From Citrus sinensis (Eukaryota; Streptophyta; Magnoliopsida; Sapindales; Rutaceae): 64,000 bases of DNA. A program made the position numbers and the translations under genes. Below the pieces are notes generated by a model. It saw only the letters and a program-made list of their open reading frames with translations. It searched no databases and was not told the DNA's origin. Every line of letters begins with the position of its first letter. The stretch's first letter is position 1. Shown in pieces: positions 15,353 to 63,597 of the stretch. The stretch is taken from positions 30,533,001 to 30,597,000 of the forward strand of contig NC_068564.1 of NCBI RefSeq assembly GCF_022201045.2. The letters run 5' to 3'.

Positions 15353-16788
15353 CTACACGTTATTTAAATTGCCCAAATTAGATGCTGCACTTGCACGGTG
15401 GTTCACCAACATTGAGCCTGAGGAAGATGATGGCGATGATGATGATCTCCTTCGTTGTCTCCTGATTAATTTTCTAATAAACTTGATGATCCTCACCATT
15501 AGTCGAATCGTATGGCCGAAAAAAAGGATCGCGCACAAGCCAATCCACACCAAAATTACATATCCAATAACGGAAGCATACGTATTCGCTTCATGAGCAG
15601 GAGTGAATGCAGACATGGAAAGTAAATAAGTGACAGCAATTGCCGTAATTGCAACCCACATTATCACCATCAAAACCCACATGAGAATCCTGTTCCTAAT
15701 TGGTAACCCACTAACGAGCAACAATATTATGCTGAGAGACGCTACAAAGGCTATAGAGTTTGAAGTGAGGAAGTGACCGTATGCCTCCGGGCTTAGATCA
15801 GCCAGAATTGAAGACCCCGCATTGTGTGCTGGCGTTTTCTCGTCGCCAACGAAATTGTCTTGCCATAATCCGCCGGGAGGGTTCGCCCCGACTTGGAACG
15901 CCATGGTTGCGATCAGTGATGCCACCACCATTAAGGTACTGCGTTTCTTTCTCAGCCAATCATATTCATCTCGCCTTGCTAGGTTATCGTTATTTACGTG
16001 GGATTTTGATGGGGTTTTGGTTTTCTTCTTCTTCTTCTTCTTCCCTTCATCACGAGCACTGATTGCTGAAGCGCGTCCAAGTAACTCAATGATCTCGCTG
16101 TCTTTCTCGTCTCCTTTGATTTGTGGTAAAATATCCAATGCTGCGAGGCCATTTGCATTCAGAGCATTCACTTCTATCGTGGTACTAGTTGTCAAAACCT
16201 TTATGGCCTGAAAATTCAAGACAATTACAAGAAATGTACTGAATAAAACAAGTTAGTTTCATTTTAATTATTTTGTCAGATATATATTCACCAAGTGCTG
16301 CATTCAATTCTCAAGAATGCCCATGGCTTTCTATGGATTATTCCACTAAACTTGAAAGCTTAAGTTAAAAGATCTTCGCTTGTTGTAAGGAGGGAGACAA
16401 TACCATAAACTAAAGTATATTATAATTTTAGTAAATCAAAACATTTGATAAGTGTAAAAACAGGAAGCTTTTTATGGGATAGGAACACCAAATGATCGTT
16501 TGTATGCTGATCTAATCAAATTTTGAGATATCAATGACATGCGATATATCAATTATATAATGAGAGGAAACAAATTTAAATCAATGACATGATTTGATTG
16601 ACTTATGTAAAACTTTCTCTTCTGTTTAAATATATATATATATATATATATAGTAGCTTTTTGGTTTAAGATCATAAAGTGTGGGAAATATTTGGGAAAA
16701 TTTTAAAATTCAAAATACTTAAACCGCATGATTTATGCGTTTTTCCAGACGTTCCCGCACTTTAAAATTTCGGATTGGAACACTTCTA

Positions 16789-16819
<31 letters not shown>

Positions 16820-17712
16820 TATATATACATATATACATATATATATTTGGAATGGATATATTGGTTCGACCAAAGGAGGTTTAATTATTAGCTCACTCTT
16901 AATTTCTACTGTTGATCAGAACACTTGTAAACTTAAGTTATATACATAAGTCGAACAGTAACTTAACATGTTGTAGATTTGACCTTGAAACAGAGAACCT
17001 AAAGATCCTTATCCTTTAAAAACTACTGTATTAGGTCGTGAAGAACATAAAATTAAAAATTAATATTCATGGACACACAGAAAGATTAATGGTAAATGAG
17101 ATTTTATCAGTTAAAATTGTAACTCATTTGATAAGTTAAGCATACCTCTGTTTGTTTATCAGCTACTGCCAGATGCAAGATAGTGTTGCCATCATTATTC
17201 TTATAATTCACAAACTCGCGATCACTCAATATGTCCAACAAAAACTTCATTGACTCCAGCTGGTTATATCTCACACACGCATGTAGAATTGTCTCACCTC
17301 TGTCCATCAACATTCGAGCTGCCTGGGGTCTTACTTGAACTAACTCTCTCAAGACATTAACATGACCCTTGATGGCTGCAACATGTAAAGGATTTCTCCC
17401 ATCTCGATCGCGAACATAACACATTTCAGGATTAACGGATACCAATTTTTTCACTATAACAAGGTACCCTTTTGCACTTGCCACGTGAAGTGGGGATGCT
17501 TTTCGGGAATCGAGCTCTCCGGCTAACTCAGGCTTTTGACTAACGATTTCCTGCACGAAATCTACATGTCCAAGCATTGAAGCTATGTGCAAAGGAGTCT
17601 CAGCGTGACAACTCACCATGAATCTATCAAGAACTAGAGCATCCTCTTGAAGCAAGTGAATCAAAGAAGCTACACTGCCGTCCACCGCTGCTTCATAGAT
17701 TCTCCTTTCCAT
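15353..17712 (-). CDS. Ankyrin-repeat membrane protein with PGG domain, BDA1-like (473 aa, 2 exons)
   Basis: Plant ankyrin/PGG proteins (ACD6, ITN1 and BDA1 groups) sit in the plasma membrane and act in immune or stress signalling; the partner here is unknown. Exons are 17712-17146 and 16207-15353; donor GAG/GTATGC and acceptor TTTTCAG/GCC join in phase 0. Residues 1-189 hold about five ankyrin repeats (TPLHIASMLGH, NPLHVAAIKGH, ETILHACVRYN, NTILHLAV). A lysine run follows near residue 250. The PGG domain starts at RSTLMVVASLIATMAFQVG with NPPGGLWQD, then three more hydrophobic helices and a basic, Ser-rich tail. The start ATG at 17712 matches the start of the paralogue at 62062, and the exon 1 length is identical (567 nt). 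The intron has TA microsatellites near 16630-16652 and 16787-16850. Confidence 0.92.
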
Positions 17713-37700: not shown

Positions 37701-39068
37701 CTAGATGTCTCATTAATTGGATTCAAGAAATAGAAGCATCGTAAGATTTTTGACAACAAAAATTTGACTAAATCATAGAAAACATACAAATAAGATATAT
37801 ACAAGCCTCTGCTATCACGCCTAGAGATGAATAATTTGGGAAAAGGAAATAAGTCCGTTATAAAACAAAAGGAACATCAAACCTGTGTCCACAATGGTTG
37901 GTGTCTCCCCTGCTGTAAGAGACTTTGATTCTATAAAGGTAATCTTCCCGGGAATGTCAATATCAAAAAGGTGTATCTGTGCATACACAAGGGTGTCAGA
38001 AATTATGGATCTGCAACAAAGAGGCATCACATGCCTCAAAGTGGGAGCCATGATCCTAATCAATACAAACAGGCAAACTTGGAGAGAGAACTTCCTAAGC
38101 GATAAAAAAGACATAGGAGATCATCAATACCATCAACCACTATCCTATTATATTAAATATCCGATTTTAATAGAACAATAAGGAAACAATACAGGGGTTT
38201 CGAACAAAAGATCAGTCAGATGCATAGTTCCAGATAGCAAGATAAGCTTAACTCTACAAGGAGACATGGCATTCAAGGTGAGACTGAAAAACTACCTTCC
38301 GGTGCTTAGCTATCAGTTTCCCATCCGAACCAAAGACGCAGCAAGTATTGTACAATCGATCCCCAGAACGTTCGGGAATAGAGCCGCCAACTATAGTGAT
38401 CTTCAGAAGACGAGCAACTTCAGAAAGCATGGCGGTGGAAGGAGATGCATCACCGCCAGCATCAATGTCTTCGGCATAAACTGGGAAGCTGTCATGCGAA
38501 TAGGGACTGTTCCAAATCTCCTGTAATAAAATAATAAAAGCTTAATTTGAAGTCAAACAATCATAGCGCTGGTATGCATAGAAGAGCTAGGAAAACAGAC
38601 AGGCAAAAGAATGAGCTTGGCGCCTTTCTCAGCGGCCTCCTCAATGGCTCTACGAGCATGAGCGATGTTCCTTTCTTTGTCAGCCGTTACTGACAATTGG
38701 CAAAGCCCAACCTTAAACTGAACAAAATAAATAAACAAATAAATAAATGAAAAAACAAGCGCAACAACAGAACACAAATAGCAGTCATCGAGATTCAAGA
38801 AATAAGCAAAATGGGAAATTGCCTTGGCGACGGGGGGAGTGGGCAAGGGAAGGGCGGGTGGGGCCCTGGCTTGTTCGGGCTTGGAAGAGGAAGCCATGAT
38901 TGGATTTGGATTTGGATTTGACGAGTGTGTGCGGATGAGAGGAGGAGATTGGAAGACGGGTTTAGCCTTTCCGAGAAATATGGAACGAGAGAGAGGGGAG
39001 TACAAGTGATTGCGTCTGAGATTGAGATTTAGATGAATCTTAGAAGTGATTGCTACTGCTGACTTCAT
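34743..39068 (-). CDS. NLP3: Omega-amidase / nitrilase-like protein, NIT2 type (364 aa, 10 exons)
   Basis: Hydrolyses the omega-amide of 2-oxoglutaramate and 2-oxosuccinamate to 2-oxoacids and ammonia, clearing products of glutamine and asparagine transamination (family knowledge). Exons: 39068-38823, 38717-38601, 38520-38296, 37976-37883, 37323-37249, 36580-36502, 36192-36177 (16-nt microexon), 35214-35134, 35010-34928 and 34821-34743; total 1095 nt, all in frame. The nitrilase triad is visible: Glu122 in LLPEIW, Lys196 in KHRKIHLFD, and Cys237 in [10 protein letters not shown]. The first 57 residues are basic, Ser-rich and acid-poor, like an organellar transit peptide; a second ATG (Met58, 38897) would give a cytosolic form. 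The first intron appears to start with GC (AAG/GCAATT). Intron 7 carries a 30-bp repeat in triplicate. Family assignment is secure. Confidence 0.93.
35891..35980. repeat. 30-bp minisatellite, 3 perfect copies
   Basis: The unit beginning TGATATTTAAAGTCAAAACA is present three times with no differences at 35891-35920, 35921-35950 and 35951-35980, inside intron 7 of the omega-amidase gene. The perfect identity implies recent expansion and likely copy-number polymorphism. Confidence 0.95.
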
Positions 39069-39584: not shown

Positions 39585-40648
39585 TATTGTTTTTCCATAA
39601 AACTTTCTAGTGTTTCCATTTCACCATTTACTTTAACTTTTTTTTTTTTTAACAAAGTTAAGAATGTTCAAATTCATATGATTTCACCATGCCATAGTTC
39701 AACTAGCTGTAAAAGTATTTTATGTCTGCGTCATTCGAATCCAAAAACTAATGAGAAACGAAGGATTAACAGTATTCAATAAATAAAATTTTTCATCCTT
39801 ATTAAAAAAAAATTGATTTTAATTATTATCCGCCTTTCATTTTTATCAATATCGAAAAGGTGAATAATTTTCAACAATCTTAATATGCAAAGTCATGATT
39901 TAGAAGTATGCTTATTAATATTGAATTGTTTTAGAGAAAAAAAAGAAAAAAAAAAGTGCCTTCCATTACAAAAAGTTTAAGCTGTAATGAATGAGTTTAC
40001 ACTATTCTTTAAAGTTGATGTACAAATATTATAGAGAATTAGACATTTTCTTTTTCAAGGTTGGTATGGTGAAAATTAATATCTTTTTTTTTAATATCTA
40101 AATGTAGATTAAATCTTTTTTTTTTAATTTCTATAATCATAGATATATTTAAGTCATTCTCAACTTAAATATACGCGCCAAGTGATTAGTCAAACGATTA
40201 AACATAATAGAATCAAAATATGGTAGTAAAGCTTTTGAGTAAAAGAAAATTTGTAATATTATATTATAAAATGCCTACTAGAATTAAATTATTTTTCTCG
40301 TTGCTGGGGAATAATTTCCAAAAAAAAATGTCTTTTTATTTTAATTATTAATAAAATGTCTTAGAAATACATTATTTAATATTAATTCCAAAATGGTTAC
40401 TTGGAGACGGCCTAACGTTCTATGGCGCACGGTACCCAATGGCCAATTCTCTGGTTCATTGAGAATCCGCGCACCCAACCCTGCATTCTGATTTGTCAGT
40501 TGATATTTAATTTAGTGTGTGAGTTCCTTAAAGAAGGCATTCACAGTACCGAATTACCCCCATAATTTTTTTCAAAAACTTAACCGTCTCTGTCTAAAAT
40601 CGGTCTCTTAACTGCCTCTCGCGCCTTCCCTGTTTTGTCACACACCTC

Positions 40649-41078
40649 TTGAAGTTCAATAATGCTACACATTCCAAATTTTTTATTTTAAAAAATTATC
40701 CCAAATGATGTGACATTTATCAATTAGTTGGTGAGATAATATAATTAATTCACTTGGATCTTGTAAAAAATCATCAACCACTCAATTAATGACACATTAT
40801 TTGGGAGAACTTTTTGGGATAAAAAATTTGAGATGTGTAGCATTATTGTCAAAAATTTGGAATGTGTAGCATTATTGTCAATAATGCTACACATCCCAAA
40901 TTTTTTATCCCAAAAAGTTATCCCAAATAATGTGTCATTAATTGAGTGGTTGATAATTTTTTACAAGATCCAAATGAATTAATTATATTATCTCACCAAC
41001 TAATTGATAAATGCCACATCATTTGAGATAACTTTTTTAGATAAAAAATTTAGGATGTGTAGCATTATTGAACTTCAA
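40649..41078. mobile_element. Two 192-bp MITE copies head-to-head in the RWP-RK promoter
   Basis: Unit 1 (40657-40848) and unit 2 (40879-41070) are reverse complements of each other with about 11 differences by hand alignment (about 94% identity). Each unit starts CAATAATGCTACACAT, ends ATGTGTAGCATTATTG, and so has its own terminal inverted repeats of about 60 bp. The 30-bp spacer is a partial copy of a unit end. The palindrome continues outward through TTGAAGTT/AACTTCAA. A 9-bp direct repeat TTCAATAAT lies at 40655-40663 and 41074-41082 and may mark the target site, though it overlaps the termini. No coding capacity. Unit 2 ends 145 bp before the RWP-RK start codon. The published polyembryonic allele of the Citrus homologue also has a promoter MITE. 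Confidence 0.92.
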
Positions 41079-41215
41079 TAATCACAATTCCAATTCTTAC
41101 TACCCACTTAATCCCAAAAGCACTCGTGGCGGCGCTTCAAAAATCAAGCGCCGCCACCACTACCTTAAAGAAGCAGCACCACCGAATGATCTTCTGAACA
41201 CAAAGTCAGTTTTGC

Positions 41216-42980
41216 ATGGCGGATCCTAGGGCCATTGTGCCGTACCATGACCCACATGATAACTCTTACACAGAAGACATTTTCAATTTCATCAATAACC
41301 CAAATCCTACATTTGCAGATTTATCATTGTTCGAGGAACCTTCTTCGATTCCGCATTCAACTAATAATCCTCAATCTGGTGGTATAATCACGGATGCCGG
41401 TGACCCTTTTGATGATCCACTCTTTTGGGATATTGGTAATAATTGCAATGCTGGGAGTTTTCAAGCGGGTCCTTCAGGAAATCAAGCAGAAATGAGTGAC
41501 CGAGGAACGCCAGCGATTGAAAATGCAGCAAATATGAAGGCATTTCCAAGATGGCCAGTGCCACCGGAGCCATATTTGTGTAGTTGTTGCCTGGTGCTCA
41601 GAGAAATCATTCATACTAATGGTACTTTTTCTTTTATCGATCTTTTAGCTTTTGTAGTCTGTTAGGATTCTCTAATTGTTGGGTGGTTTAGTTTTATAAT
41701 TTTTTGACTCTGTGTAAAGTAGTGTTACTTGATTTTGATGGTATACTATAGGCCATGGCACAACAAAACTTGAGATTCATGGAAGACTTGGTTTAATCTG
41801 TCATGCTATTCTTGAGATTCGACAAAGTACCAATGCGAGTCAGCATTACATGATCGAGTGAGTTAAATTTCTGTTTCCCACTTTGTTAAGTTTAATTCCC
41901 TAATTTAGTTTTGGTCCAAAAAAAAAAAAAAAATCCAATTTGATTTTATTAATTTCACCATTGTTAATTTTCTGTACTTGTGTGTTCTGTCCAGTCTTTA
42001 TTTAATCCTCCGTTATCATTCTGTTTTGTTCAAACAATGCATTGTTAAGTAGTTTTTCTCTTTGATCAGTTTTTGCAAGAAAAGCATAGAGAATGTGAAG
42101 GAATATCTGGTTCAATATTGTGAAGAGCGAAAGCAAGCAGGGTTTATGATGTTGCCGGACCCACTCTCAGATTTCTATGAAGCCGTTTGTGTGGGGTTGG
42201 TCTTGGATGATAATCTAACCACAGATGATTATTCTCAGCCTCCAATGACAAATTCAGGTTGGTTTAATTCACTTTTCTTGTTATCATTAGTTAATTGATC
42301 CACGCTTCAGTTGATTTATCTATGATCAATTCATCAGTAACTTTTCAATGTTACTTGTCATTAGAAGTGTTGGATTTATGATCAATTTTCTGCAGGAGAA
42401 AATGAAATGCATCAACCAGATATGGAGAATGAAGCAGAGAGGACTACAAGGACTTCTCTTTCGGCGCAGGTGATAGATTTTCTCTTCATCATCTAACTTA
42501 ACAATTAATATCGAATTGTATCTTTCTGCTCCTTTTTGTCATTTACATTATATTATCATCTTTAACCCAGTATTTTTTTGTTGTGCTGGGGATTAGTGCA
42601 GAGGGAGAGAACAGGAAAGTTGACATTGAGAGACTTGATGATTTATTTTCATCTCCCCATTGAGGAGGCAGCCAGGAGGATGAAATTATGCCCTACTGTG
42701 GTGAAGAAGATATGCCGCAGAGATGGTTTGCATAGATGGCCCCATAGAAAGGTCTGACTTAATCCCTTTCAATCTGCGTACTTCTTCTTTCTTCGATACT
42801 CATTATGTTATCGAAATTGTTTTCTTTTGGTCTATGCAGATAAAAAGCATACAGAGGAGGATGTCGGTTGCATCAGGCAGATTGCGTTCAAATGATGCAG
42901 AAGAGAGGGCAAATGCTCAAATAGAAATCCAGAGACTTCAAGAAGAAATGGCTGCTGCATGTGCTGGACTCACTAGATGA
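41216..42980 (+). CDS. RKD1: RWP-RK domain transcription factor, RKD type (354 aa, 6 exons)
   Basis: RKD proteins are nuclear DNA-binding factors that control egg-cell identity and early embryogenesis (Arabidopsis RKD1/2/4); the Citrus member CitRKD1/CitRWP is the main candidate for nucellar polyembryony. Exons: 41216-41621, 41752-41857, 42070-42257, 42396-42469, 42602-42751 and 42840-42980; 1065 nt in frame, GT-AG throughout. The N-terminal 115 residues are acidic and Pro/Asn-rich, plausibly activating. A central cysteine-containing region with REIIHTNGHGTTKLEIHGRL and LPDPLSDFYEAVCVGL follows. The RWP-RK domain occupies about residues 259-320 (RTGKLTLRDLMIYFHLPIEE, then RRDGLHRWPHRK at 297-308). 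The C-terminus is a short coiled coil (AQIEIQRLQEEMAAA). The MITE pair lies in the proximal promoter and could alter expression. The symbol follows the Citrus name and assumes the species call. Confidence 0.9.
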
Positions 42981-47722: not shown

Positions 47723-47855
47723 TGTACTGTGCCGTGGAAAATAAATAATTAATTTGTTCGATTGTTTGGGTATTTACTGTTTTCAAGCTTTATGATTTGT
47801 AAAACTTGTTCCTTCTCCTTCTCTAGGGACTTTGGTTAATGTGTAATATCCTAAA

Positions 47856-48057
47856 GAGTAATGATATAGCCACAAATTCTTGTACAAACTTATTTTGTAC
47901 AAACTGATGTGGCATGATAATATTGGTTGAATTAAATATCACTTGGCCCACATGATTTGTTTTTATTAATTTATATTTTCATTCAACCAATCTTATCATG
48001 CTACGTCAGTTTGTACAAAATAAATTTGTACAAGAGTTTGTGGCTGTATCATTACTC
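47856..48057. mobile_element. 202-bp MITE with perfect 9-bp target duplication (Mutator-like)
   Basis: The termini are inverted repeats of about 77 bp (GAGTAATGATATAGCCACAA against GAGTAATGATACAGCCACAA on the other strand, about 90% identical). The perfect 9-bp direct repeat TATCCTAAA flanks it at 47847-47855 and 48058-48066, as expected for the Mutator superfamily. No coding capacity. It shares internal motifs (GATGTGGCAT, CACTTGG) with the MITE pair at 40.7-41.1 kb. It lies about 490 bp upstream of the PPR gene. Confidence 0.88.
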
Positions 48058-48545
48058 TATCCTAAATCATAATGCACGGTAGATTAGTTTGTCATGGGAA
48101 TTAAATAAAAAAAAACTATACGAATAGTATAATCTTTTGGATGATGAATAGGATTGTTGAAATAAGAGCAAAGAAGATTTAGAACCCCATTTTCTCTTTT
48201 GATCTACAAACCAGAAGCTCGAACAGAGCTTCTCATAATGAAACAAAATCTGTCTTTTGGATCAGTGAAAATCTACTCGAAAATTAGAATTCAACTATAA
48301 TGTTTCCACATAAAATTCAACCCAACTAGGCCGTTCTGACTGCTGAATGCTGAGTATGGGATCGATTGCGGAGCATGAACGCATAGCAGAATGTTAAAGA
48401 GTGCTAAATTCCATCCCACGCATACTATACAAGCCGATTTTGAAGAGCTCTTTCTATAGATTATAGTGGGTCCAAGGTGAGCTGTCAAGCCTATAAGTAG
48501 TCGATATGAAGTGAAAACACACCGGCATTCGCCGAAACCGTTTCA

Positions 48546-50249
48546 ATGGCTACCCCACGGAGATCCCTTACCAACATATCTCAAATCCCGGACCAAAGCA
48601 TTCTTGTTACCTCCATAACTTCCGTTATCCAACGCCTAAATCCACAAAACCCTAGCCCTAAAAACATCTCCTCACAACCACTCGATCAATTTTCCCTTTG
48701 CTTAGGCTCAAATATAGTCACCAAAGTTATCTACGAACAAACCAACCCTTATCATGCTCTTTTCTTCTTTAACTGGGCATCCAACCCTAACCCTAACCCT
48801 AACAAATATCACCACACTACTCCATGCTATACAGCCATCACTGACGTTTTGCTCTCTCACTCGCTCATCTCCATTGCCGCTTCACTTCTTAAAAATTCCA
48901 ACAAGCTCTCTGATTTCTTCATTAGCAAGCTCATTAAGGCTTACGGTGATCGCGGCAATGTTAAAGCTGCAATCTTTTGGTTTCACCAAGCCAAACAGAT
49001 TGAAAATGGGGCTTGTTTGTATTCATATAATTCGCTTTTGGGTGTTCTGGTTCGAGTTAATTCAATCAAGTTAGCTGAGGAATTTTTCCACCAGATTGTG
49101 AAGGAAAATGTCGTGCCGCCTGATGTTTCGACTTATACAACGATGATTAGAGGATATTGTAAAATGGGTATGATCGAAAATGCTAAGAAGGTGTTTGATG
49201 TAATGACTGTTAAGCCTAATTTACTTGCTTACAATACTATGATAAATGGGTTTTGTAAAAAAGGTGATATGGAGAGTGCAAGATTGGTTTTTGATCGGAT
49301 GATGAGTGGCGAAGATTGCTTGCCTAATCATGTGACTTATACTACTTTGATTGATGGGTACTGTAAGAAAGGTGAGTTAGAAGAGGCAAAGAAGTGTATG
49401 AATGAAATGATGAACAGAGGTTGCCGGCCGAATGAGTTGACTTACAATGCAATGATTTATGGATTGTGTATAAATGGTCGTGTTGATGAGGCTAAGATGC
49501 TGATGGCAAAGATGAGGTTGAATGGATTCAAGGATAATGTTTCCACTCACAAAAGTATGTTAAAGGGGCTTTGTGTTGTGGGGAAGTTTGATCAAGCTGT
49601 TGGATATCTTAGGAACGTGATGGAGGCTAACATGAATCCGGATGTGAAATCTTACGAAGTTGTTATTAATGGGTTTTGCAAAATTGGGAAATCAGATGAA
49701 GCTATATCGCTTTTGAAGGAAATGCGAGCAAGAGGCTTAAAGCCAACTGTGTTTAGCTTTAATGCAGTGTTTAGGATTCTTGTGGAAAATGGGGAGCTTG
49801 ATAGAGCAATTTTACTGCTAAAACAGATGCCACAAATGGATTGCCTGCCTAATTTTGTGTCATATAATACAATAATATGTGGTCTTTGTATGGCTAAAGG
49901 TAGGATGCAAGATGTGGAAGACCTTGTTGACCGCATGATTAGAAGTGGTCACAACTTAGATTTCACCATGTATAGTTGCTTGCTTAAAGGATACTGCGAG
50001 GAAGGCAACGTGGAAAATGTAATGCAAATTGCCCATGAAATGGTCACTAAGAAGTATGTCATTGGTCTAGAGAGCTTTTCAGTTCTTGTCAAGCAGTTGT
50101 GTGCAAAGGGGAAGGTTACTGAAGCTGAAAAACTTTTTGACACGTGTAGTAGATGCCCTGCTGTTGATGTGGATAGTTACAGGAGGGTCTTGGATCAGCA
50201 GATTTGTATTCGTTCATCAAGTTGTAGTAATTATGGAGAGAACTGTTGA
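48546..50249 (+). CDS. P-class pentatricopeptide repeat protein (567 aa, single exon)
   Basis: PPR proteins bind organellar RNA one base per repeat and act in stability, splicing, translation or processing; the target RNA here is unknown. The intronless frame runs from the ATG at 48546. The first ~110 residues contain the family's usual N-terminal region with YHALFFFNWAS, and may include an organellar targeting sequence, though it is not a strong one. From about residue 130 there are about 11 P-type repeats of 35 residues, for example SYNSLLGVLVRVNSIKLAEE, TYTTMIRGYCKMGMIENAKK and TYTTLIDGYCKKGELEEAKK. No E, DYW or SMR extension follows, so this is a pure P-class protein. A run of CCCTAA hexamers at 48783-48803 simply encodes alternating Asn-Pro. 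Confidence 0.93.
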   Translation: MATPRRSLTNISQIPDQSILVTSITSVIQRLNPQNPSPKNISSQPLDQFSLCLGSNIVTKVIYEQTNPYHALFFFNWASNPNPNPNKYHHTTPCYTAITDVLLSHSLISIAASLLKNSNKLSDFFISKLIKAYGDRGNVKAAIFWFHQAKQIENGACLYSYNSLLGVLVRVNSIKLAEEFFHQIVKENVVPPDVSTYTTMIRGYCKMGMIENAKKVFDVMTVKPNLLAYNTMINGFCKKGDMESARLVFDRMMSGEDCLPNHVTYTTLIDGYCKKGELEEAKKCMNEMMNRGCRPNELTYNAMIYGLCINGRVDEAKMLMAKMRLNGFKDNVSTHKSMLKGLCVVGKFDQAVGYLRNVMEANMNPDVKSYEVVINGFCKIGKSDEAISLLKEMRARGLKPTVFSFNAVFRILVENGELDRAILLLKQMPQMDCLPNFVSYNTIICGLCMAKGRMQDVEDLVDRMIRSGHNLDFTMYSCLLKGYCEEGNVENVMQIAHEMVTKKYVIGLESFSVLVKQLCAKGKVTEAEKLFDTCSRCPAVDVDSYRRVLDQQICIRSSSCSNYGENC

Positions 50250-58260: not shown

Positions 58261-60309
58261 AATTTAACTGAGTCTGTGGGTGCTCCCCTACTACGTACGC
58301 TTCTTACCTTTGGTGATCTGAATCTGACCATCAATCGACATGTAATACCCCTGGGTTGGGCCGTTGGCCCCAGCTCATGGTATTTGGCACCTTACCACTT
58401 GTTCCCTCCATTCATGGGGCTGCCGACTTGCTCTTTGGATTGGGCGCTCACTGATCACCATCCACACGCCCACAATCGTTTTGATACACGTTTTATTTAA
58501 GACTAGTAAAATTACAAAAATATTACCCAAATCTAAGTTTTAATTAACGATAATAGTCCTTACTAAAATTGAGTATTTTGGATATAATATGAATGATAAC
58601 AAACTAACCGTGTCAGCAGATGGGGTACTCTATGTTAGTAGATGTTTGTCATCATACTTGGGATATTATTATTGTCTAAAATGTTCTTCTTTTCATTTTT
58701 TTTTCCCACCAAAGTATGAAAATAATAAGTGAGACTAGTTTTGTAAATTAACTTAAAAGTATTCTTAGGGCATGTTTGGTAAATGAGATAAAAATATCAT
58801 GGTTGAACTATTTGAAACAAATCCCACCCTATCCTGTATTTAGTGAATCAAAACGCCGTAGGATTGTTTTATCATTGGGTCCACCATATAGAAAATTTAT
58901 TCTAGGGAAGGAAATTGAGATTAGTTAGGATAGGATCATATTGTTAATTTGATTAAAAATAATAATTTATAAATATTAAAATTATATTAATTTTTGATAA
59001 ATATAATAAAAAGCATTGATTATAATAATGTAAAATAGTAAATATAATAATTATAATTATGATCTTTTAATTAATTAATTTAAAATAACATTTTTAGTAT
59101 TATAATGTTTATTAAAAATAATTTATTTATTTAGGTAAATAATATTTTTAATATTATAATTCATTTTTCTCATTAAATTATAATAATATTTTAATTTATA
59201 TAATTCTTAAATATTCTTATAATTTCAAGTTTACATTTTAAATTAATTATTAATAATATTTTATTTTAATAATAAAAATAATTTAATTTAATATTATAAT
59301 ATAAAACATTATTAGTAAAAATATTAAAATATTTTATAATCAAAGATTTTTCATTTTATATTAAGTCAATTTCATTTTTAATAATACAATTAAACTAAGA
59401 TATTTATTTATTTATTGTTAATTTTAATAATAAAAATTTATTACTACAATCTAATTTAATCATAACTATTGAATTATACCAAATATAGACAGTATTAAAC
59501 ATAATTCAGTCATATACTATCTTATATCATCTCATCCCATCCTATCACATTCTATCATATCTTATGCTGCATACCAAATGCACTTCAAAATTTATGATTG
59601 AAATGTAGAATTCAACTAATTTAAAAGCCTATGAAGTCACTAAGTCAAAATTTAATGAAGATTAGGGTCCGTAGAAATACATTTTTGAAAGTTGCTTGAA
59701 AATTAGTAGGAATTTGAGACTAAATAATAAAAATATTAATAAAACCTTGTACATTATCCCAACTTCCATAATCTTTAACAAATTCGTATTAGTATAAAGG
59801 GTATTGCAAAATTCTTCTACAAATCAGAATAAGCCAGCAAATATAACATTGAATATAATTCGATTATCTATATTTTCAATAAGCAAACATTTAAAAAGAA
59901 ATTATTATAAGAACAAGCAATCTAAAAATCTACCTACTTATTATAACTCAGTTTGTATTGCAACTAACAAAATTAATGTTCAAATAAAAACCAAATAAGC
60001 ACAATTCCATCTCCAAACTCAAATAAACCCACACCATAATTGAAAAATCCAAGAGAAGAAATGAGGACATAGGGTAAAATTGAAATCTGAGAACTGAAAC
60101 CGAACAATCAGTCCATGGAAAGAGATGACAAGTAATTTTTACTTGGAGGAGTTTTTTTTTTTTTTGTGAGCAACAAGGGCCACTCTGATATTGGGGTTTG
60201 AAACACAATGGGTAACGACAAGGTGGGCAAACATTCAGGGGGAATATATATATATATATATATTCCGAAGGGTTTGCTTTTGCCTTCGCACCGCAAGAGT
60301 TGTGGGACA
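58261..60309. other. Intergenic, very AT-rich; possible hAT-like remnant at 58767-59585
   Basis: From about 58767 (GGGCATGTTTGGTAAATGAG) to about 59585 (ATACCAAATGCACTTC) the sequence is extremely AT-rich, and its two ends share a short inverted TTTGGTA motif, a layout common in plant hAT-derived MITEs. I could not find a clear target duplication. No gene recognised. Confidence 0.45.
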
Positions 60310-61037
60310 TTTAAAAAAATGGTAATTTTTAAAAATTTCCCATGAGGTTTGAGGCTGTTGCAAGTAGATGGTGAAAATTATTTTATTTGTAAAAGGTCTC
60401 CTACCGTTAGTTAAAAATTTCATTGACTAACTGTTGATTTTGAAAAGACAATATTACCCCCAATATTTACAATTCTAAATATTTACAATTTCATAAGTAA
60501 TTAAAACAATTATTTTCACCATGATCAAGTTATTGATATTTCCTTAAAATCTTAAAAAAATAAAATTACAAATCTTAAAATAATTTTTTTAAAGTTTGTA
60601 ATAAAATTACAAATCTTAATTATTTGATATAAAAATATAATTTTTTTTAAGTTTGTAATTTTAATTTTTTTAAGATTTTAAGGAAATTTTAACTGACGTA
60701 AACTTTTTTTTTAAGTTTGTAATAAAATTACAAATCTTAATTATTTGATATAAAAATGTAATTTTTTAAAGTTTGTAATAAAATTACAAATCTTAATTAT
60801 TTGATATAAAATATAATTTTTTTTAAGTTTGTAATTTTATTTTTTTTAAGATTTTAAGGAAATTTTAACTGACGTAAACTATTATTGGGGGTAATATTGT
60901 CTTTTTAAAGTCAACAGTTAGTCAATAAAAATTTTAACTAACGGTAGGGGGTCTTTTACAAATAAAATAATTTTTACCATCTACTTGCAACAGCCTCAAA
61001 CCTCAGGGGAGGTTTTTAAAAATTACCCTTTAAAAAA
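60310..61037. mobile_element. 0.7 kb element with ~145-bp terminal inverted repeats (Mutator-like)
   Basis: The left end (60320-60463) and right end (60884-61028) are inverted copies at roughly 90% identity by eye; both arms contain GAGGCTGTTGCAAGTAGATG and CTACCGTTAGTTAAAA when read inward. The 9-mer TTTAAAAAA abuts both ends (from 60310 and 61029), compatible with a Mutator-type duplication but low in complexity. The centre consists of several copies of a unit containing ATTACAAATCTTAATTATTT. No coding capacity. The transcript would be a long hairpin. Confidence 0.75.
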
Positions 61038-62061: not shown

Positions 62062-63597
62062 ATGGAGAGGAGGGTCTATGAAGCAGCGGTTGAGGGCAGC
62101 GTAGAATCTTTGCTTAAATTGCTTCAAGAGGATGCTCTGCTTCTCGATAGATCAATGGTGAGTTGTTACTCTGAGACCCCTTTGCACGTAGCCTCAATGC
62201 TTGGACATGAAAACTTTGTGCGGGAAATTTTAAGTCGAAAGCCTGAGTTAGCTGGAGAGCTCGATTCCAGAAGATCATCAGCACTTCACTTGGCAGCTGC
62301 AAAAGGGCACCTTGGCATAGTGCTGAAATTGGTATCGGTCAATCCCAAAATGTGTTGTGCTTGCGATCGAGATGGGAAAAATCCTCTACATGTTGCCGCC
62401 ATCAAGGGCCATGTTAATGTCTTGAGAGAGTTGGTTCAAGTAAGACCCAAGGCCTGTCGAATCTTGATGGACAGAGGTGAGACAATTTTGCATGCTTGTG
62501 TGAATTATAACCAGTTGGAGTGCCTGAAGTTGCTGGTGGAGACACTGAATGATCATGAGTTTGTGAATTCGAAGGACGACGATGGCAACACTATCTTGCA
62601 TCTCGCCGTCATCGATAAACAAGTAGAGGTATATATAATGTAGCTAATAATTAATGATATATCTCCTTACCATTAATTAGTTGATTAATTCTACTCTTTC
62701 TTTTCCCTTTGTATTTAACTTATATATAATGCGAAACCCGAAAACGTGCAGACGATAAAGTTTTTGACTGACAGCTGTACTACATTAGAAGTGAATGCTG
62801 TTAATGCAAATGGCTTCACAGCTTTGGATATTTTAGCACGAAGAAAATTAGATGTGAATTGGACGATCGGAGAGCTGCTTCGATGCGCTGGAGCAAGAAG
62901 TCAGAAGGAAACACGCGAACCTTCTCCAGCCATCACACAGACACCGACAGGATCGATCATAACATCCCATTCTGATGACCCTAGTAATCAAGGGCGTGAA
63001 CGTCCAGAGAAGGTTAGAAAAAAGCAAGAAGATGAATGGTCCGAAAAAAAGCGTAATGCATTAATGGTGGTAGCATCACTCATCGCTACCATGGCATTTC
63101 AAGCTGCTCTGAACCCTCCTGGTGGTGTATGGCAAGACGATTCCCAAGCAAACGACACTTCACCACATGACGCAGGGTCTTCGATAATGCTAACTAATGT
63201 TGAGAGTGTTTACTATCTTTTCTTTGGTTTTAACACCACAGGCTTTGTGGCGTCTCTTAGCATCATATTATTGCTCATAAGCGGCATCCCATTTTTTAAG
63301 CGCAGGTTTTTCATGTGGATTTTAACTGTGATAACGTGGGTTGCAATTAGTGCAATGGCACTAACTTATCTGTTCGGGGTAGTTGGTATTACGAATTCGG
63401 GTAACAGCGTGGCACCCCAGTGTGGTTTTTTATATGTAATGGATGGATGGATTGGGCTGATAGGGATTCTTATTCTCGCGCACATTGTACGCCTTATGGT
63501 GAAGATGATAAAATTTTTGCTAAAATTAATGAAGAGATCACCACGGCAACCCTCAAGTTCGGATGCTCACGCAGCACATCCTATTCATACCGTCTAA
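62062..63597 (+). CDS. Ankyrin-repeat membrane protein with PGG domain, BDA1-like (470 aa, 2 exons)
   Basis: Paralogue of the gene at 15353-17712, on the opposite strand about 45 kb away. Exons are 62062-62628 and 62752-63597; the donor GAG/GTATAT and acceptor GTGCAG/ACG join in phase 0, at exactly the same codon as in the paralogue. Residues 1-189 form about five ankyrin repeats (TPLHVASMLGH, SALHLAAAKGH, NPLHVAAIKGH, ETILHACVNYN, NTILHLAV). The PGG domain begins KRNALMVVASLIATMAFQAA with NPPGGVWQD, then three further hydrophobic helices and a basic tail. The ankyrin halves are about three-quarters identical by eye; the region between ankyrin and PGG is much more diverged. The intron is far shorter (123 bp against 938 bp). 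The likely role is plasma-membrane immune signalling, by family only. Confidence 0.93.

Follow-up and report, generated by a model that had tools for sequence, protein, structure and literature searches.

In this study, we found that a 64-kb window of DNA (the whole stretch analysed here) contains a dominant polyembryonic allele of CitRKD1/CitRWP, in which an inverted pair of AT-rich fold-back MITEs in the promoter most likely represents a cis-regulatory gain. The structure and the identity of the locus were determined from the sequence analysed here, and the expression, binding, and phenotype data were taken from publications.

CitRKD1/CitRWP is located at 41216-42980 on the forward strand, where six exons (41216-41621, 41752-41857, 42070-42257, 42396-42469, 42602-42751, and 42840-42980) could be placed at GT-AG borders. 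The resulting model (1065 bp, 354 aa) encodes an RWP-RK domain (Pfam; residues 264-312, E = 3.7e-21) and agrees in ORF length, amino acid count, and exon number with CitRKD1 as described by Shimada et al. 2018 (1065-bp ORF, 354 aa, six exons, and five introns; PMC6090715). In addition, all six published CitRKD1 primers tested (two genotyping, two P/M marker, one fifth-exon, and one 3'-UTR) match once each in the 64-kb window. The genotyping primers, at 40396-40417 and 41837-41857, enclose an amplicon of 1462 bp here (40396-41857). Because both the primers and the gene structure match, the window is a Citrus haplotype with the polyembryonic CitRKD1 allele. The sequence-only reading, which had recognized an RKD gene (CitRKD1/CitRWP) of Citrus with a link to nucellar polyembryony, was therefore right. 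The alleles of satsuma have been told apart by an A/G SNP at CDS position 240 (PMC6090715), and this position is G in the present allele. An ORF on the reverse strand (38553-39068), which encodes the first part of a carbon-nitrogen hydrolase domain (E = 4.5e-06), is divergent from CitRKD1, and the MITE insertion is placed between the two.

The insertion consists of two 192-bp MITE units, which were delimited by inverted-repeat alignment and which face each other: unit 1 at 40657-40848 on the forward strand and unit 2 at 40879-41070, reversed with respect to unit 1. In an ungapped inverted alignment, 181 of the 192 positions are identical (94.3%), whereas the same-direction alignment gives only 75.3% identity (146 of 194 columns). 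Nine of the 11 changes between the units are transitions. The inverted-repeat arms reach 208 nt (40649-40856 and 40871-41078; 94% complementary) with 14 nt between them, and together form a near-palindrome at 40649-41078. The best ungapped inverted-repeat score in a 3001-bp region was 316, whereas 50 dinucleotide-shuffled versions averaged 13.9 and never exceeded 20. When folded as single-stranded DNA, the 430 bp reached -187.3 kcal/mol (z = -35.8), and none of 100 shuffles folded as well. The ATG of the RWP-RK gene, at 41216, lies 145 bp past unit 2 and 137 bp past the right TTCAA. These results bear out the earlier proposal of two facing 192-bp units of about 94% identity, arranged as a near-palindrome of about 430 bp and ending 145 bp ahead of the RWP-RK start codon. 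Each unit is also self-complementary over its own length (74% and 76%), and unit 1 folded alone gives a z of -8.5; since unit 1 folds without its partner, the pair is not needed for hairpin potential.

The units are short and AT-rich, and CAATAATGCTACACAT is found exactly at both ends of both units. TTCAA, GTCAA, and TTCAA are candidate 5-bp TSDs, the middle one being off by one of five bases. Both this reading and that of a 3-bp TSD (TAA) fit, although with 5-bp TSDs the right TIR would be separated from its TSD by additional bases. Counted from TTCAA to TTCAA, the whole insertion covers 424 bp (40655-41078). Besides the pair itself, the longest MITE relative in the window is a stretch at 1-77, cut by the window edge, which resembles the inner part of the unit (positions 59-136) with 73% identity; all other matches in the window are 25 bp or shorter. 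With one TIR pattern each, no match was found in microbial contigs and none in viral contigs, as expected for such collections.

Of the 30 bp between the two units, 27 (40851-40877, reverse strand) are an extra MITE end rather than a plain spacer. This piece is identical at 27 of 27 positions to the reversed left end of unit 1 and at 25, 26, and 25 of 27 positions to the remaining three ends, and it shares with the left end of unit 1 a T that is absent from the others. When up to three mismatches were allowed, AATAATGCTACACAT gave nine matches in the 64-kb window; five of them are exact, and these five all lie inside 40658-41069. The presence of the 27-bp piece thus makes five exact MITE ends, not four.

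The twin-MITE structure is already known as the Citrus polyembryonic allele. Using PCR and circular-consensus sequencing of the promoter in 103 Citrinae samples, Wang et al. 2022 described a Citrus allele of 424 bp, in which a ~202-bp and a ~227-bp MITE have 5-bp TSDs that overlap, and a Fortunella allele of 596 bp with three 202-bp MITEs; the insertion is reported there as absent from sexual haplotypes and also from apomictic Poncirus (PMC9671666). The present allele shares with the Citrus allele of Wang et al. the gene, the promoter position, and, in the 5-bp reading, the overlapping TSDs. The ~227-bp MITE corresponds to 40655-40881 (TTCAA to GTCAA) and the ~202-bp MITE to 40877-41078 (GTCAA to TTCAA), and 227 + 202 - 5 gives 424 bp, all three being exact in a comparison of lengths, not letters. 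The sequence-only reading had left open the number of units in the published allele, and the answer given by the circular-consensus reads is two; the head-to-head pair is therefore the allele already described rather than a novel structural variant (PMC9671666). The same 424 bp in these reads, along with the 11 differing sites of 192, which indicate that the two units are not one sequence assembled twice, also rules out an assembly artefact of a single unit.

Wang et al. contrasted the two Citrus units with their own prior single 203-bp MITE, which was based on short-read and/or Sanger data. They termed the two Citrus MITEs 'different', and read the differing numbers and sequences as hinting that the insertions of Citrus and Fortunella arose separately (PMC9671666). 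In our alignment, unlike in that description, the two Citrus units are 94.3% identical once one is reversed, which weakens the sequence half of this hint. The FhRWP allele of Fortunella hindsii, compared by description only, likewise has ~202-bp MITEs in the promoter of the same gene, but it has three units and 596 bp. Should both 'different' Citrus MITEs be one element in two orientations, part of the argument for separate Citrus and Fortunella origins would have to be reconsidered. The main text of PMC9671666 does not name the orientation of the MITEs, the word 'orientation' being used there only about introgression. These MITEs are also the subject of Jeong et al. 2023, and the orientation may already have been published; the near-identity after reversal, the fifth MITE end, and the absence of CG and CHG sites are not stated in those parts of the literature that we considered.

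Shimada et al. 2018 reported a single MITE in satsuma: the CitRKD1-mg2 allele has a 219-bp insertion with a TAA TSD, including a 185-bp putative MITE with the 19-nt ends ACACATTCCAAATTTTTTA (PMC6090715). In the present allele, 219 bp lie between TAA at 40660-40662 and TAA at 40882-40884 (40663-40881), and this stretch equals unit 1 plus the stray 27-bp end. ACACATTCCAAATTTTTTA is found exactly at 40667-40685, in unit 1. However, no second exact copy of this 19-nt TIR was found, its reversed form occurring only with one or two mismatches, and the 19-nt TIR positions give spans of 172, 201, or 394 bp instead of the reported 185 bp; the 219-bp fit therefore relies on the TAA-to-TAA distance. By subtraction, the genotyping PCR would yield 1462 bp with both units, 1265 bp with unit 1 alone, and 1043 bp with none, and the reported products are about 1.3 and 1.0 kb (PMC6090715). 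CitRKD1-mg2 and the present allele are thus alike in gene, primers, left TIR sequence, exon number, and the 219 bp between TAA, and they differ in that CitRKD1-mg2 has no second unit, its 1.3-kb product being nearer to 1265 than to 1462 bp, and in that its 185-bp MITE and second exact 19-nt TIR are absent here. As judged by these sizes, the report of Shimada et al. looks like a description of the allele without the second unit. Because TCAATAAT, located at 40656, 40878, and 41075, recurs at the latter two positions, loss of the 197 bp between these would give a product of that size. Unit 2 may have been lost in the tube, by slippage past the hairpin, or in the tree. The base-level anatomy thus offers a way to reconcile the published sizes of 219 and 424 bp, but leaves unexplained the published 203 bp, which is one off a 202-bp unit. 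PCR across this palindrome may drop a unit, and this should be taken as a warning.

As for the origin of the pair, we prefer a scenario in which two sibling elements were inserted in opposite orientation, together with a short templated copy of the end of unit 1. Alternatively, one unit may have undergone a recent local inverted duplication. The latter would fit the outermost flanks, which prolong the symmetry with TTGAAGTT beyond both outer ends, but the two units have diverged by 5.7%. If about 2.2e-9 substitutions accumulate per site and year, this would need about 13 My, whereas the insertion has been dated to the early Pleistocene (PMC8313541). Deamination of methylated C could have accelerated this divergence, since nine of the 11 changes are transitions.

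In the most likely scenario for its function, the two opposed copies of an AT-rich fold-back MITE, which end 137 bp before the ATG, would provide binding sites for an activator of the ARID type (in kumquat, FhARID). With the promoter open in the ovule, the RKD factor would be expressed in cells other than the egg cell and would turn nucellar cells into embryos. The insertion would thereby act as a gain of activator sites that switches CitRKD1 on in the ovule. Several published results speak for this scenario. CitRKD1 transcripts derive from the MITE allele, and antisense CitRKD1 abolishes polyembryony (nucellar embryos) in sweet orange (PMC6090715). In 95 varieties, the marker genotype is said to agree with the embryony type without exception. 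In kumquat, the right part of the MITE is bound by FhARID, which activates a reporter (PMC9671666), and a 2025 review citing Song et al. 2024 (ATAC-seq) describes the Fortunella MITE allele as more accessible. On the other hand, the binding evidence comes from the kumquat MITE, and ARID binding in Citrus is putative.

The earlier suggestion that the pair brings duplicated regulatory motifs next to the promoter is correct insofar as the sequence is doubled in the DNA, but two or three copies of the MITE fragment gave no significant gain in a luciferase test (PMC9671666). This lack of a copy-number effect also speaks against a gain of activator sites. Together with the folding of unit 1 alone, it counts against a role of the pair as such, although the inverted geometry may make a putative extra contribution. 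The insertion would not be the sole route to apomixis, given that apomictic Poncirus is reported to lack it.

The insertion could instead act whatever its sequence, by separating a repressing upstream element, or the control region of the divergent neighbour, from the proximal promoter. Such an option of disruption has also been raised in a review, and mango polyembryony, for which an unrelated insertion of chloroplast origin about 1.1 kb upstream of the orthologue has been implicated, would be a case of quite different inserted DNA with the same outcome. Nevertheless, FhARID activates a reporter via MITE fragments alone, and Fortunella and Citrus both have ~202-bp MITEs at the promoter rather than random DNA (PMC9671666); we therefore regard an effect of mere spacing as rather unlikely. 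It is highly improbable that the insertion is nothing but a tightly linked marker of the polyembryonic haplotype. While we found no removal of the insertion from the promoter combined with seed scoring in the parts of the literature considered, distinct insertions in Citrus, Fortunella, and mango have all hit the promoter of the same gene, and allele-specific transcription tracks the insertion (PMC6090715).

In the forms tried here, the promoter motifs TATAWAW (TATA box), TAAATGYA (L1 box), CCAAT, CArG, and a WUS-type core have no match in the insertion, which lends no support to a putative ready-made promoter inside the MITE. Shimada et al. named an L1-layer element specific to the MITE allele (PMC6090715), and this element was not reproduced in the insertion with the L1 pattern TAAATGYA. 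The 424 bp contain six copies of an ARID-like core, RATTAA, as compared to 13 copies in the 1586 bp upstream (about 14 versus 8 per kb), a density that is higher in the insertion but not special for such AT-rich DNA.

The GC content of the insertion is 26%, as compared to about 45% in the flanks (40400-40654 and 41079-41215). Its 424 bp contain no CG and no CHG on either strand, but 110 CHH cytosines (56 + 54). Base shuffles of the insertion have on average 7.1 CG and 6.2 CHG, and none of 2000 was free of both. Since the two halves repeat each other, shuffling a single unit is a fairer test, and in this case a fraction of 0.0002 (n = 5000) was free of both. Among 6358 windows of 424 bp taken in 10-bp steps, 29 lack CG and CHG, all of them starting at 40631-40701, which is the insertion, or at 58861-59061; the stretch at 58861-59484 is the sole other place with such windows. 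GC-matched windows (20-bp steps) have a mean of 10.3, and four of 249 have none. The absence of CG and CHG is thus unusual, albeit not unique.

With neither CG nor CHG sites, only CHH methylation would be possible on the insertion, and claims of its methylation can concern CHH sites only. Reviews describe the MITE as hypermethylated in polyembryonic citrus, which does not sit easily with simple open chromatin. One may then ask whether the palindrome works as a structure or as a source of siRNA, both of which had been suggested in the sequence-only reading, so that read-through would yield a duplex of ~200 bp, 24-nt siRNAs, and CHH methylation, or a cruciform would form, either of which would alter promoter activity. 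The near-perfect 200-bp hairpin potential and the restriction of methylation to CHH are in line with this idea. On the other hand, siRNAs and CHH methylation at another citrus MITE accompany repression, which is the opposite sign (PMC11022811); methylation in kumquat was measured in leaves, and its authors deemed a role in expression unlikely, leaving the nucellus open (PMC9671666); and unit 1 already folds alone, making the pair unnecessary. We thus consider this mechanism very unlikely. It is also tempting, albeit quite unlikely to be correct, to speculate that function lies in geometry and base composition and not only in a binding site: an opposed pair free of CG and CHG could not keep heritable symmetric methylation, its own hairpin would feed RNA-directed CHH marking, and this reversible state would time CitRKD1 in the nucellus. 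In a linked reading, the stray 27-bp end would be what is left of a lost middle unit, and the Citrus allele would have collapsed from an array of three MITEs, having one common origin with the Fortunella allele rather than being an independent event.

Other fold-backs and genes were also found in the window. An inverted repeat at 60317-61031, whose 149-nt arms (92% complementary) are separated by 417 nt, resembles a larger non-autonomous DNA element and encloses smaller fold-backs (60533-60868). A further MITE-like fold-back close to a gene, at 47855-48058 with 82-nt arms (91% complementary), lies about 490 bp ahead of the start, at 48546, of a 567-aa PPR-repeat ORF (PPR_1 E = 2.7e-86). Ankyrin-repeat and PGG-domain gene pieces lie opposed near the two window ends, at 15353-17712 (reverse strand) and 62062-63597 (forward strand). 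The ORFs of the window were listed from a length of at least 150 aa, which is more than the 424-bp insertion could encode.

In summary, the polyembryonic CitRKD1/CitRWP allele most likely owes its activity to a cis-regulatory gain through its MITEs. According to reviews, the PAR alleles of dandelion and hawkweed similarly combine a promoter MITE with dominant activation of an embryo-inducing gene, although both the gene and the elements are different. The points worth keeping from the present analysis are the orientation of the units, the additional 27-bp MITE end, the lack of CG and CHG sites, and a proposed explanation of how the 219- and 424-bp sizes relate. Clonal seed formation in sweet oranges, lemons, grapefruit, and many mandarins has been linked to this allele, which serves as a model in the engineering of apomixis.
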